This document shows, piece after piece, positions 9,124-43,266 of a DNA stretch of 48,651 nucleotides (the stretch's first letter is position 1; every line of letters begins with the position of its first letter). The position numbers and the translations under genes are program-made. Where the stretch lies: NCBI GenBank assembly GCA_902610905.1, contig CACLXS010000007.1, forward strand, positions 1-48,651. Reading direction: 5' to 3'. The notes below the pieces were generated by a model, which saw only the letters and a list, made by a program, of their open reading frames with translations, was not told where the DNA came from and ran no database searches. This DNA comes from an uncultured SAR86 cluster bacterium (GTDB lineage Bacteria; Pseudomonadota; Gammaproteobacteria; Magnimaribacterales; D2472).

Positions 9124-10440
9124 TTAGCGCTTAAAATAATCAATATTATAAAAATCTACATGTGCATCTATAGATTCATCTGGTATATTCCAACCTTCTG
9201 GAGCATATGTCATTGATATATCCTCCCAGTTTGTTAATCTCATGGTTTCGTTAAATTGTTTATAAAACTCTTCTTCATTAAGTCCTGTATAAAGCTCTAC
9301 AGCACCCCAAAATCCATATTCATAGTATAGTGATGGTATATCTCTTAAAACTACCTCCCACGAACTGATACTTGCCATAAAATGAATTGGTGCAAATGGT
9401 GCTAGTTGATTTTCACAATCATTGTTATTATGTCCATCTTCTGGATAACCATCAGAATGTTCTGGGCCTAATTCCCAACCACTACAATCAATTAATTCAT
9501 AATTTATATGACCTGATTGTTCCACATATGGTCCGCTTGACTGAATTCTTTGTAAAAACCACCAAAAAGAGGTATTGCGTCCATTTATTTGAAAATTAAC
9601 CATATTATTAATATCTTGTGAATCATATTTATCTAAAAAGTTAAGATTTTTCCAATTTGATCTTATCCACCAAAATTCAGCGGACATAGCAGCACCTTCA
9701 ATCCACCACCATGGAGCATTGACGCTTTGATTAGGATCATCTTCAGGAGCACTTTGATAATCTAAACCTCTGTCTAATGCATGCGCTCTTTGATAATGAT
9801 GAAAATATTCATGCTGCATATGCTGGATTATTTCAATTTCAATTTCATAATCTTCTGGTCTATAGTTGGGGTCATTTGCTGCATGACTATAAAGAAGAAA
9901 ACTTTTCCAAACCATGCATGTTGAATGCTGTTCAAAATCTGAATCTTTTTCCCAACCATTAGGATTAGCGCCCGCTAGACAACTGGATACACTCCTAAGT
10001 TCATTTGTTGAGTAGCCATCTTCCCAGCCATTATATTTAAGTTCTACTAATCTATTCATAATTGGTACATTAATTTCATCAGGACCATCTTCATTAAAAA
10101 CCATATAGTTATAATTCATATATCCACCAAATGATGTATTTAAAGCATTTTGTGTAATATCTTCTCTATCAATGTAATATTGTTCAATATCAATACTGAA
10201 TATAGCCCATTGATCTGGATTAGATTTAGGTTGATTAAATCCCTCATTTAAAAGTTTTATTGTTGCATCATTTGGAACAGCTGTAGGCGAAGGACAGTTT
10301 GGATAACAAGGAAAGTTTGTATTAATTAATGTAGGTGGGATAGTAGAATCAACATCAATTATTTCTGATGATTTACCTCCTCCACATGAAGTTACTAGTA
10401 TTAATGATAAAAATGAAATTGTTATAAATGATAGTTTCAT
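9124..10440 (-). CDS. Secreted lipoprotein with HEXXH zinc-peptidase signature, family not recognised
   Basis: A 438-residue protein with a type II signal peptide: a hydrophobic stretch to residue 16 and a lipobox with C19 in VTSCGGG, followed by a Ser/Pro-rich linker with a small Cys pair (CYPNC). The core carries HEYFHHYQ at 210-217, a classic HEXXH zinc motif, then WWWIEGAA at 244-251, where E248 is placed to be the third ligand as in gluzincin peptidases. The rest is rich in Trp, Tyr, Asn and Asp and contains further Cys residues, typical of an extracellular protein. I do not recognise a named family. Peptidase activity is an inference from the motifs. It is transcribed alone and bracketed by a 28-bp repeat. 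Confidence 0.75.
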   Translation of the reverse strand: MKLSFITISFLSLILVTSCGGGKSSEIIDVDSTIPPTLINTNFPCYPNCPSPTAVPNDATIKLLNEGFNQPKSNPDQWAIFSIDIEQYYIDREDITQNALNTSFGGYMNYNYMVFNEDGPDEINVPIMNRLVELKYNGWEDGYSTNELRSVSSCLAGANPNGWEKDSDFEQHSTCMVWKSFLLYSHAANDPNYRPEDYEIEIEIIQHMQHEYFHHYQRAHALDRGLDYQSAPEDDPNQSVNAPWWWIEGAAMSAEFWWIRSNWKNLNFLDKYDSQDINNMVNFQINGRNTSFWWFLQRIQSSGPYVEQSGHINYELIDCSGWELGPEHSDGYPEDGHNNNDCENQLAPFAPIHFMASISSWEVVLRDIPSLYYEYGFWGAVELYTGLNEEEFYKQFNETMRLTNWEDISMTYAPEGWNIPDESIDAHVDFYNIDYFKR

Positions 10441-11638: not shown

Positions 11639-12019
11639 ATGACTGAATATCAAGTATTAAACCTTATGCAGGTTAGTTTTATTCAAAATTCTATGTATTT
11701 TGTAGGAATGGTTCTAATGACATGGCTTGCTTTTAGGATGTGTAATAATGTTAGAAATAATCCTAATGTAAACTTAGCAGGAAAACTGTTTACATCAATT
11801 TTCTGTGTATTTGTTGCAGCATTTATGTTTCAAGTTAATCAAATTGGTGGAGCGATATTAAATTCAAATGTTGCTTTGTTGGTTGACATGGGTGCGGCTT
11901 CGGGCGATAGAATGTCTGAATATTTAGATGCTCCGCTTATAGTCGGTGGACCTGTACAAACAATCTTTGTTTTATTTGTCTTAGTATTCCAACTTGCTTT
12001 AGTTTGGGTTAAAGAATAA
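11639..12019 (+). CDS. Small three-helix membrane protein of unrecognised family, paralogue A
   Basis: A 126-residue protein with three predicted membrane helices at about residues 17-36, 50-70 and 102-123. A soluble loop of about 30 residues precedes the last helix. I recognise no named family. It shares layout and residues with the protein at 39771: a helix ending W-[LI]-A-x-R, a polar Asn-rich linker, N-[LI]-x-G-K at the start of helix 2, and a C-terminal helix ending in a Trp/Lys motif. It has a strong ribosome site (AGGGAG, 5-10 bp before ATG), sits alone, and is followed by a strong bidirectional terminator, all suggesting high and independent expression. The near-palindrome AAGTTGTTTAAACTT at 11610-11624 lies just upstream. 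Confidence 0.8.
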   Translation: MTEYQVLNLMQVSFIQNSMYFVGMVLMTWLAFRMCNNVRNNPNVNLAGKLFTSIFCVFVAAFMFQVNQIGGAILNSNVALLVDMGAASGDRMSEYLDAPLIVGGPVQTIFVLFVLVFQLALVWVKE

Positions 12020-12032
12020 TAAACTTAGAAAC

Positions 12033-12064
12033 AAAAAAAGAGGGCCATATGCCCTCTTTTTTTT
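12033..12064. terminator. Bidirectional terminator
   Basis: The stem AGAGGGC (12039-12045) with GCCCTCT (12051-12057) closes a 5-nt loop. It is flanked by A residues on the left and T residues on the right, so it can end transcription in both directions. It separates the membrane protein gene from the convergent secreted-protein pair. Confidence 0.92.
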
Positions 12065-12784: not shown

Positions 12785-13525
12785 TTATTCACCATTAAAG
12801 TTTTTTACGAATTGAACTAATTCTGTATTTACATTTACCCTTATATCTTTAGCAATTTTAGCAAAATCTGCAAAATCTGATGTTGATCTAACTTTTGCAA
12901 GTGATTGAGAGAGATCTTTCATTGAATCAGCTCCGAAATATACCATATGTGATGTGTATCTATTTCCATAAGGAATAACATTAAGTCCAAATGATCCAGG
13001 TATATTATTTATTTGTGATTGCATTAACTGTTTCCATGCACTGACATATTCTGACTCACTACCCTCTTGAACTTTAAAATTAAATTTTGCAAAAACAGTA
13101 TTAGATTGCCAATTCCTTCCTGATAATACATTTTCAGATACCCAGTTCCATGATCTATCTGTATCTGTTGATCTTTGAAAGCTTTTAATCATCATTGCTG
13201 ATTCTTTACATGAGGTAAATATAGCTCTTCCTTTTTGCATTTGATCCCAATTTTCATAAACTACTAAGATAAAATGACTATTTCCTGAACCTCTAAGAGC
13301 CCAAAGGCTAACATCAGCTCCAGATTCATTTCTCCAATTTTTAGCACATTCTGATTTATCAAAATCATTAAGAGCTTTCATAAAACTAGATGGATCTGTA
13401 ACAGTAAAGTAATTAAATTCACCTACTGTTCCATCACTCTCTATTTTTTCAGAATTTGCTGAAATTGATGTGTTGAATAATAAAAAAGATCCAACAACAA
13501 TAATTGATAATATATTTTTATACAT
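12785..13525 (-). CDS. Secreted protein of unknown function, partner of the downstream gene
   Basis: A 246-residue protein with a signal peptide (residues 1-23, ending SISA). The mature sequence again appears to be two beta-alpha-beta units: FNYFTVTDPSSFMKALNDF and FILVVYENWDQMQKG in the first, FAKFNFKVQEGSESEYVSAWKQL and SHMVYFGADSMKDLSQSL in the second. Helix spacing and the motif of a strand, then Asp/Ser, then a helix with aromatic residues match the neighbouring protein, so they are probably ancient paralogues. Two Cys residues in the first half (CAKNW, SCKES) could form a disulfide. It is the promoter-proximal gene of the pair. Function unknown. Confidence 0.72.
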   Translation of the reverse strand: MYKNILSIIVVGSFLLFNTSISANSEKIESDGTVGEFNYFTVTDPSSFMKALNDFDKSECAKNWRNESGADVSLWALRGSGNSHFILVVYENWDQMQKGRAIFTSCKESAMMIKSFQRSTDTDRSWNWVSENVLSGRNWQSNTVFAKFNFKVQEGSESEYVSAWKQLMQSQINNIPGSFGLNVIPYGNRYTSHMVYFGADSMKDLSQSLAKVRSTSDFADFAKIAKDIRVNVNTELVQFVKNFNGE

Positions 13526-39741: not shown

Positions 39742-39770
39742 TAAATATTAACATCATAGGAGGAGAGATT

Positions 39771-40181
39771 ATGGAATTAGAAATGGCTATTTGGAATATT
39801 TGGTCTATGAATAGAATAACTGGAGCAATTACTACACTTGCTATAATTATAGCAATATGGATTGCTGCAAGATTTGCAAGTGTTGCATCTGAGCAAAACG
39901 AAGAAAATAAAAATATTGGCGGAAAAATTATTCTTACTTTATTTGGTGCAAGTGTTATTGGTGGCGGCATAATGAGTAATTTAATGTCACAAAGAAATTG
40001 GACTGTTACTGCTGATGCATTTAATAATATGAAGAATGCTGGAATGGATTTAAGTCCAGCAGCCACAGAGTTTATGACTACCTATAGTGGTGAACCTAGT
40101 TTATTGAACACACCATTAGCTCTTGTTTTCTTTATTACGGCTTTTTTAATTATTTTATTCCCAATATGGTTTAAAAAATAA
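39771..40181 (+). CDS. Small three-helix membrane protein of unrecognised family, paralogue B
   Basis: A 136-residue protein with three predicted membrane helices at about 15-36, 49-70 and 112-133. A soluble loop of about 40 residues lies between helices 2 and 3. It resembles the protein at 11639: IWIAARF versus TWLAFRM at the end of helix 1, NIGGKIILTLFG versus NLAGKLFTSIFC at the start of helix 2, and similar C-terminal helices ending in FKK or VKE. The ribosome site is an unusually strong AGGAGGAG and a strong terminator follows, so high monocistronic expression is likely. No known domain or catalytic motif is apparent; function unknown. Confidence 0.8.
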   Translation: MELEMAIWNIWSMNRITGAITTLAIIIAIWIAARFASVASEQNEENKNIGGKIILTLFGASVIGGGIMSNLMSQRNWTVTADAFNNMKNAGMDLSPAATEFMTTYSGEPSLLNTPLALVFFITAFLIILFPIWFKK

Positions 40182-40196
40182 TTTTTACATAATATT

Positions 40197-40226
40197 AAAA
40201 AGGCACTGAAAACGTGCCTTTTTTTT
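40197..40226 (+). terminator. Rho-independent terminator
   Basis: A 10-bp stem, AAAAAGGCAC (40197-40206) with GTGCCTTTTT (40214-40223), closes a 7-nt loop and is followed by T residues. It ends the membrane protein transcript just before the histidine operon promoter. Confidence 0.93.
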
Positions 40227-41391: not shown

Positions 41392-43266
41392 ATGAAAAAT
41401 CTTACATTAAATAAAAAATCGACAATCTTAGACTTTAACGAATCAAAAATTTCATCTAAAGATATTGCAACAATTAATAAATTTAAAAAATTAGTGATTA
41501 ATGAGGGAGATAATGGACTTAGAAAAATTGCTAAGATTTTAAATGAAAAAGAACTTAAATCTTTCAAAGTTACTAAAAGTGAATTTAACCAATCAGATAA
41601 ATTTCTTTCTGATTCACTAAAAAATTCAATTCTTATTGCATACGCAAATATAAAAAAATATCATCAAAAACAACTTGATGGACTTTCAATTAATAATCTT
41701 GAAACTACAAAAGGTATTTCATTATGGTCAGAATTTAGACCGATTGATACGGTGGGATTATATATTCCAGGTGGAACAGCTCCGCTATTTAGCTCATTAT
41801 TAATGCAAGCTATTCCTGCAATAATTGCAGGATGTAAAAATATTATCATATGCACTCCACCTGATGCTAAGGGAAAAATAAACCCAACTATATTATGGGT
41901 TGCTAATTTATTAAAAATAAAAAATATTTATAAAGTTGGCGGTGCTCAAGCAATATTTGCTATGGCATATGGAACAGACACTATTCCAAAATGTCTAAAG
42001 ATTTTTGGACCTGGTAATAAGTATGTTACTGAAGCAAAGGTTATTGTTAATAAAGATGTTCCAATTGATATGCCAGCAGGACCAAGTGAGGTTTATGTTT
42101 ATTCTGATGATGAAAAAAAAGTTGATATTATTGCTTCAGATTTACTATCCCAACTTGAACACAGCGTAGATGCAAAAGCTGTTTTAATTTCAAAAAATGA
42201 ATTGCTTTTAGACTCTATTAAATCTGAAATAAGACAACAAAAAGTTGATTTAAAAAGACAATTAATTCTTGATAAAAGCCTTAAAAATATTTACTTAGTA
42301 AAAGCAAAGAATGATCAAGAGATAATAAATTTCATTAATGATAATGCTCCAGAACATCTCATTCTTCTAGATAATAATTTTTCAAAAATTGTACCTTTAA
42401 TTAATAATGCAGGATCTGTTTTTTGTGGTAAATATTCACCAGAATCATTTGGAGATTATGCATCAGGTTCAAATCACACATTGCCAACTGGTAGAACTGC
42501 TAAAACATACTCAGGTCTATCAGTAAAAGATTTTGGTAAAAGTATTACGTTTCAGACTGCCTCTCCTGATGGCTTTATAAACTTAGCACCCACTGTTAAA
42601 ACCTTGGCAGAGGCTGAAAGTCTTGATGCTCACAAAAAAGCTGTTTTAATAAGGGAAAGTTATGCACTTAATGATTTAGATAACCAATCTAGAACATCAT
42701 TTGTTAAAAGAACTACTAATGAAACAATTATTTTTATAAATTTAAATATAGATGGTTCTGGAAACTATAATATAGATACTGGTCTGAAGTTTTTTGATCA
42801 TATGCTTGAACAATTTGCTAAACATGGTGGGTTTGATATAACAATTAATTGTTTGGGTGATCTTCAAATAGATCAACATCACACCATTGAAGATGTTGCA
42901 ATTGCTTTAGGTGAAGCATTTAAAGCTGCCATTGGAGATAGAAATACTATTGAAAGATATTCATCCATAGAAACATTGGTTATGGATGAGACTATATCAA
43001 CAGTTACTATTGATATGGCTTCAAGAACATTGTTAAAAATGAAAACATCTGATTTAAGAGAATATGTAGGTGATTTTCCAACTGAAATGTTCGAACATTT
43101 TTTTATATCATTTATTAATGCAGTCAATTTTACTTGTCATATTAATACAAAAGGAACTAATACTCATCACATCGTCGAAGCTACATTTAAAAGTTTTACA
43201 AGAGCCTTAAAAAAAGCACTCACTAAAACAAAGTTAGATGTTGCATCAACAAAAGGACTTCTATGA
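41392..43266 (+). CDS. Fused histidinol dehydrogenase - imidazoleglycerol-phosphate dehydratase
   Basis: A single 624-residue frame. Residues 1 to about 425 are HisD with all key residues visible: GLYIPGGTAPLFSS, GPGNKYVTEAK, Q and H in SQLEHS, E and H in APEHL, D in SFGDYASGSNHTLPT, and H in LDAHKKAV. Residues from about 434 to 624 are HisB (dehydratase only) with FFDHMLEQ, HHTIEDVAIALGEAF, SRTLL and HHIVEATFKSFTRAL, the manganese-binding histidines. The join (about RESYALNDLDNQSRTSF) has no stop or in-frame ATG or other start codon, so HisB must be made as part of the fusion. hisC, which usually sits between hisD and hisB, is absent. The two activities are steps 6 and 9-10 of the pathway, so they are not consecutive. 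Confidence 0.93.
   Translation: MKNLTLNKKSTILDFNESKISSKDIATINKFKKLVINEGDNGLRKIAKILNEKELKSFKVTKSEFNQSDKFLSDSLKNSILIAYANIKKYHQKQLDGLSINNLETTKGISLWSEFRPIDTVGLYIPGGTAPLFSSLLMQAIPAIIAGCKNIIICTPPDAKGKINPTILWVANLLKIKNIYKVGGAQAIFAMAYGTDTIPKCLKIFGPGNKYVTEAKVIVNKDVPIDMPAGPSEVYVYSDDEKKVDIIASDLLSQLEHSVDAKAVLISKNELLLDSIKSEIRQQKVDLKRQLILDKSLKNIYLVKAKNDQEIINFINDNAPEHLILLDNNFSKIVPLINNAGSVFCGKYSPESFGDYASGSNHTLPTGRTAKTYSGLSVKDFGKSITFQTASPDGFINLAPTVKTLAEAESLDAHKKAVLIRESYALNDLDNQSRTSFVKRTTNETIIFINLNIDGSGNYNIDTGLKFFDHMLEQFAKHGGFDITINCLGDLQIDQHHTIEDVAIALGEAFKAAIGDRNTIERYSSIETLVMDETISTVTIDMASRTLLKMKTSDLREYVGDFPTEMFEHFFISFINAVNFTCHINTKGTNTHHIVEATFKSFTRALKKALTKTKLDVASTKGLL

Follow-up and report, generated by a model that had tools for sequence, protein, structure and literature searches.

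Two small proteins encoded in the window, the whole 48,651-nucleotide stretch of DNA analyzed here, are paralogs. Their family of small inner-membrane proteins, undescribed until now, is near-core in the SAR86 group, lineage-restricted, and also present in small marine Alphaproteobacteria. Single copies of the family are replaced near gene-exactly at fixed chromosomal sites, and P1-type genes repeatedly adjoin a gene for a secreted protein predicted to form a dimeric alpha+beta barrel. We tentatively propose, with a probability of roughly one in three, that family members serve small-molecule modules as an exchangeable subunit, either for specificity or as an adaptor. As contig 7, the window is part of an incomplete 1.02-Mb draft genome in 27 contigs, which our searches place in the SAR86 group of the Gammaproteobacteria. 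An earlier note, made from the sequence alone, had described the two proteins, here P1 and P2, as related copies of a conserved membrane protein family without assigned function. The present analysis supports that description, finds no library match that explains either protein, and adds what the note did not contain: the lineage restriction and horizontal exchange of the family, the status of P2 as a replaced allele, and the recurrent neighbor gene of P1.

Homology of P1 and P2

P1 and P2 are about 22% identical, and a plain BLASTP comparison between them is not significant. Their homology is secured by phmmer, profile search, and hhalign. With P1 as query, phmmer recovered P2 within the genome at E=2.2e-4; a P1-clade profile built without P2 retrieved P2 at 1.2e-8 among 77 window ORFs, with the next best at 0.5; a profile of intermediates that included neither clade matched P1 and P2 at 3e-28 and 6e-23; and hhalign of the two profiles gave 96.5% (E=9e-10). 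The profile similarity covers the full length and is accompanied by common invariant residues: every one of the 57 distinct members has W29 and R33, and all but one have K49 and W123. The shared motifs to which the earlier note had drawn attention are present in P1 and P2 as WLAFR/WIAAR and NLAGK/NIGGK, together with charged C-termini.

Searches of known families yielded no assignment. No family in Pfam, NCBIfam, or PHROGs matched above its curated cut-off or with a convincing E-value, and no solved structure matched P1 or P2 by sequence. Foldseek with the P1 model, for which E <= 0.001 was required, gave best values of 0.68 (PDB) and 0.48 (BFVD). The best match to the PADLOC anti-phage models (E 0.015, one of 26 members) does not place the family among them. 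CvpA (PF02674, Colicin V production protein) shows a weak local match to the transmembrane (TM) region of P2 (E 0.017), which reflects hydrophobic-helix similarity and reaches 15.6 bits against a gathering score of 29.3 in P2 only, one of 26 members. The profile searches run here placed the two proteins neither in unrelated families nor in a known family of defined function, and the claim of kinship stands unrefuted.

Genes, ribosome sites, and terminators

Both ORFs are present as claimed (126 and 136 residues), and their measured spacing of 27.75 kb agrees with the 28 kb given before. The strong terminators attributed to both copies are real, with zero shuffles as stable as either hairpin (Table 1), and the P1 hairpin can terminate both convergent genes. 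Two further claims hold for one copy each. P1 is certainly monocistronic in the window, because both of its neighbors lie on the opposite strand, whereas for P2, which begins 72 bp behind a gene on its own strand, this is uncertain. Elsewhere in SAR86, P1 orthologs lie 3 bp upstream of a second gene. The ribosome site of P2 is strong, its AGGAGG being a 6-base match that is exceeded in length in only 2 of the 44 window ORFs, whereas the GGGAG of P1, a 4-base match, is ordinary. The suggestion that the proteins are abundant and probably highly expressed did not find support. In codon adaptation, P1 ranks 39th and P2 2nd among the 44 window ORFs; we rejected this measure as evidence of expression because ribosomal-protein genes fall below the window median. 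Literature searches found no expression data for the family and nothing else on it.

Table 1. Coordinates and supporting data for the features discussed (window positions unless a genome or locus is named)
Feature	Position	Strand	Data
P1, 126-residue three-TM protein	11639..12019	+	ORF call; AF2 pLDDT 93
P2, 136-residue family member, probable replaced allele	39771..40181	+	ORF call, G013 comparison, tree
AGGGAG ribosome site of P1	11628..11633	+	sequence; ordinary by match length
AGGAGG ribosome site of P2, common to G013 despite the different gene	39758..39763	+	
P1 terminator hairpin, symmetric, also positioned for the convergent gene	12033..12063	+	-17.2 kcal/mol, z -5.2
P2 terminator hairpin, inside which G013 homology resumes	40197..40223	+	-12.1 kcal/mol, z -4.8
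Block unalignable by blastn to G013 (gene-exact replacement)	39780..40215	+	
c24, secreted protein of ~229 residues, convergent with P1	12071..12760	-	
c10, secreted 246-residue protein, predicted tandem dimeric alpha+beta barrel, recurrent neighbor of P1 orthologs	12785..13525	-	
Variable island, its end 17 bp upstream of the P1 start codon	8650..11621	.	length 3.0 kb, against about 10.8 kb in G013
Secreted 438-residue lipoprotein-like ORF	9124-10440		HEYFHH zinc-protease-like motif; no Pfam match
624-residue ORF resembling a HisD + HisB fusion	41392-43266		by sequence
c24/c10 tandem arrays	G047:C2:60048-62889; G044:C1:363778-365861; G053:C1:81832-83957		
Short family members	L072:9887-10159; L073:6510-6779; L075:7367-7636; L165:848-1126; L169:5624-5893		

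Replacement of single genes at fixed sites

The clearest replacement is that of P2. Genome G013 is syntenic with the window and ~95% identical over about 36 kb of it, and at P2 its alignment halts at the start codon and restarts within the terminator. G013 has at this site a family member that shares 30% identity with P2; the 29 other shared genes compared are all 88-100% identical. In the tree, the G013 allele falls in the clade of its own genus, and P2 pairs with a gene of G035, a genome of another genus (support 100/99), in which that relative occupies a different site. P2 is therefore most simply read as an allele that horizontal transfer brought into the native site. A chimera of assembly or binning could also produce such a difference in an incomplete draft of 27 contigs. 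This is very improbable: the breaks fall at the start codon and the terminator, identity is ~95% on both sides within one contig, P2 has its own intact frame, and the same pattern is seen in several PS1/OCS116 genomes. P1, in turn, is under strong purifying selection, with 21 synonymous and 0 nonsynonymous differences from G013.

The P1 site has a second type in the same genus. Three genomes (G009, G015, and G016) carry a P1 ortholog 60-61% identical and a c10 34-35% identical, with cysM at 91-93%, and their P1 genes nest within the clade of another genus. PS1/OCS116 genomes have two family genes flanked by EthD on one side and a Rieske oxygenase on the other; DNA identity is mostly 85-99% in copy 1 and the flanks and about 50-76% inside copy 2, whose alleles group with different genera. 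One PS1/OCS116 copy is placed with a SAR86 gene (support 99/85), and copy 1 forms the sister of a group from SAR86 family f3 (99/92). These placements suggest exchange between classes, subject to the caution that short proteins call for. The content of tandem family arrays also differs between 93%-identical neighborhoods.

To set these cases against a background rate, the identity drop of one gene between two flanks was compared with that of controls. With flanks at least 90% identical, a drop of more than 25 points was found in 3 of 21 family pairs, 0 of 76 size-matched controls, and about 3% of all controls, an excess that is real but modest; the numbers are small and the loci related. With flanks of 80-90%, the family median drop was 16 points, none exceeding 25 (n=7); where controls dropped by a large amount, non-homologous genes had replaced one another at one site. 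A first list of swap candidates was rejected, because it included comparisons between tandem paralogs as well as overlapping copies of a single locus.

Distribution

Genome collections were scanned with the narrower alignments A2 and A3 in place of the broad alignment A1. The family was found in 145 of 203 genomes of the SAR86 order, and in 35 of the 40 that are at least 90% complete, usually in one to four copies per genome; loci examined in SAR86 family f3 carry tandem arrays of two to three family genes. Among 369 gammaproteobacterial genomes drawn, the four positives all belong to the SAR86 order, and the 398 genomes taken from the phylum yielded a single scoring genome, that of the window itself. 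Outside the order, relatives were found in PS1 and OCS116, two alphaproteobacterial clades, and in a few further alphaproteobacterial genomes. The viral contigs scanned contained no relatives, which argues against a phage gene. SAR86 family f4 also has short members of 89-93 residues, without most of the periplasmic segment, located close to a full-length one (Table 1).

Predicted structure and variable regions

Structurally, the AlphaFold2 model of P1 (48 sequences) contains two long helices (residues 3-40 and 46-83), then a short helix (87-93), and last the third TM helix (105-123). The positive-inside rule would make the protein an N-out, three-helix inner-membrane protein with its N-terminus and residues ~70-104 in the periplasm; the same rule and charge counts would place the loop 35-49 and the C-terminus in the cytoplasm, and the four invariant residues at the cytoplasmic boundary. 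The protein probably oligomerizes. Among members 85-99% identical, divergence is 0.10 in the periplasmic segment, about 3-5 times that of the N-terminus and TM1 (0.02-0.03); TM2 and TM3 also diverge.

Gene neighborhoods

In SAR86 family f1, P1-type genes lie nearly always <1 kb from a gene for a secreted c10- or c24-type protein, in one of three layouts: convergent, as in the window; divergent, with ~150 bp between; or with c10 following the family gene after 3 bp. In these ~1.2-Mb genomes, 9 of the 12 well-matched c10 genes are <1 kb from a family gene. Neither c10 nor c24 has a match in Pfam. The c10 model (pLDDT 85) is a tandem dimeric alpha+beta barrel, with beta-alpha-beta-beta-alpha-beta units and fold matches at E 1e-7 to 1e-10 to 2pgc (the best, a marine metagenome protein), 3mcs and 3f44 (putative monooxygenases), 5f9p (anthrone-oxidase-like), and PenE. 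It is alike in fold to the dimeric alpha+beta barrel group (antibiotic-biosynthesis monooxygenase, EthD, chlorite dismutase), a likeness of fold only, at 8-14% identity. As a sequence homolog of c10 or c24, 2pgc was rejected, since it matches neither in sequence; between c10 and c24, the profiles aligned only in the signal peptide, and no homology is claimed. The two types of secreted protein form tandem arrays of their own, separated by about 30-40 kb from the arrays of membrane-protein genes that the same contigs carry (Table 1).

In Alphaproteobacteria, EthD lies 90-330 bp from the family gene; from its Pfam family, we take EthD to have the same broad fold as c10. Signal peptides are present on the SAR86 barrel proteins and absent from EthD, so the two cannot be one and the same partner acting in one compartment. 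At five alphaproteobacterial loci, a TonB-dependent receptor lies 166-312 bp downstream of the family gene. At loci L199, L200, L201, L204, and L207 of marine Alphaproteobacteria, the family gene is directly upstream of one to three consecutive TonB-dependent receptors. The variable genes around the family in SAR86 include those for S9 and M14 peptidases, an FAD oxidoreductase, a TPP enzyme, and a cyclase. Upstream of P1 in the window, G013 is ~95% identical on both sides of the variable island. A HisD-HisB-like cluster (622-624 residues) follows hisG in the SAR86 loci showing it.

Proposed function and alternatives

The constant cytoplasmic face, the variable periplasmic part, and neighbors that bind or oxidize small molecules suggest an adaptor or specificity subunit. 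The constant cytoplasmic side would dock on something common to the modules, and the variable periplasmic half would work with a module-specific partner, either the barrel protein or the TonB-dependent receptor system. The task of a module would be the uptake or oxidation of small, probably hydrophobic, molecules, and alleles would be swapped because specificity resides in them. Several observations count against this proposal: c10 and the family genes are widely separated in SAR86 families f3 and f4; once cysM is corrected for, the family and c10 show weak co-divergence (partial r 0.20, permutation p 0.016); the P2 site has no adjoining partner gene, P2 having been swapped alone; and no conserved polar residue in the membrane points to transport or catalysis. 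It is doubtful that the family acts as a cell-wide 'identity' or specificity cassette, that is, as exchangeable inner-membrane specificity proteins whose alleles move gene-exactly between genera and classes at fixed sites.

Immunity and escape from phages account for the swaps equally well, but not for the neighbors or the near-core status. A chromosomal (orphan) inner-membrane immunity protein against the pore-forming or membrane toxins of neighboring cells, kept in small arrays with alleles turned over by exchange, would fit a small three-TM protein with a fast-changing periplasmic part, the differing content of the tandem arrays, and the exchange of single genes between lineages and apparently classes. 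We consider this unlikely, as no toxin gene was recognized in the neighborhood tables, no colicin-immunity or PADLOC model matched, the near-core distribution is unusual for immunity genes, and the neighbors include catabolic and receptor genes. Phage pressure could instead replace the alleles of a physiological membrane protein whose periplasmic face phages use for DNA entry. In its favor, purifying selection acts within alleles that are nevertheless replaced wholesale by one another, and the periplasmic segment is variable; a hypervariable outer-membrane-modification region with a suggested role toward predators and phages is known in SAR86 (PMC3569297). The divergence of TM2 and TM3 as well, the lack of a homolog in viral contigs, and the lack of virus-like neighbors leave phage escape, too, an improbable explanation. 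The reading offered by the earlier note, an abundant structural or bioenergetic membrane protein, would make the alleles interchangeable and their replacement near neutral. Near-core status, separate terminators, and the strong ribosome site of P2 agree with it; the lack of expression evidence in our searches, the uninformative codon bias, and the absence of the family elsewhere in the class and phylum as sampled, which argues against a general bioenergetic role, make it less likely still. The adaptor or specificity subunit remains our preferred, tentative reading.

Comparison with known systems

The family is real, undescribed, and lineage-restricted, with an unusual gene-exact exchange. SAR86 bacteria are among the commonest in the surface ocean, and a near-core SAR86 family that is under strong purifying selection yet replaced gene by gene suggests that streamlined ocean bacteria possess a layer, so far undescribed, of either resource specificity or biotic conflict. 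The gene-exact swaps supply natural pairs of alleles whose backgrounds are nearly identical, so that the question can be tested.

The immunity proteins of E1-type pore-forming colicins are small, span the inner membrane with three TM helices, and vary in sequence, features that the P1/P2 family shares; unlike them, the family has no sequence match to such proteins, has no recognized toxin gene adjacent to it, and is near-core and chromosomal. The hypervariable outer-membrane-modification region described from a SAR86 single cell, for which the authors suggest interaction with predators and phages (PMC3569297), resembles the family in consisting of strain-variable SAR86 genes. That region is a block of glycan-modification genes, whereas the P1/P2 family consists of single inner-membrane genes swapped at fixed sites.
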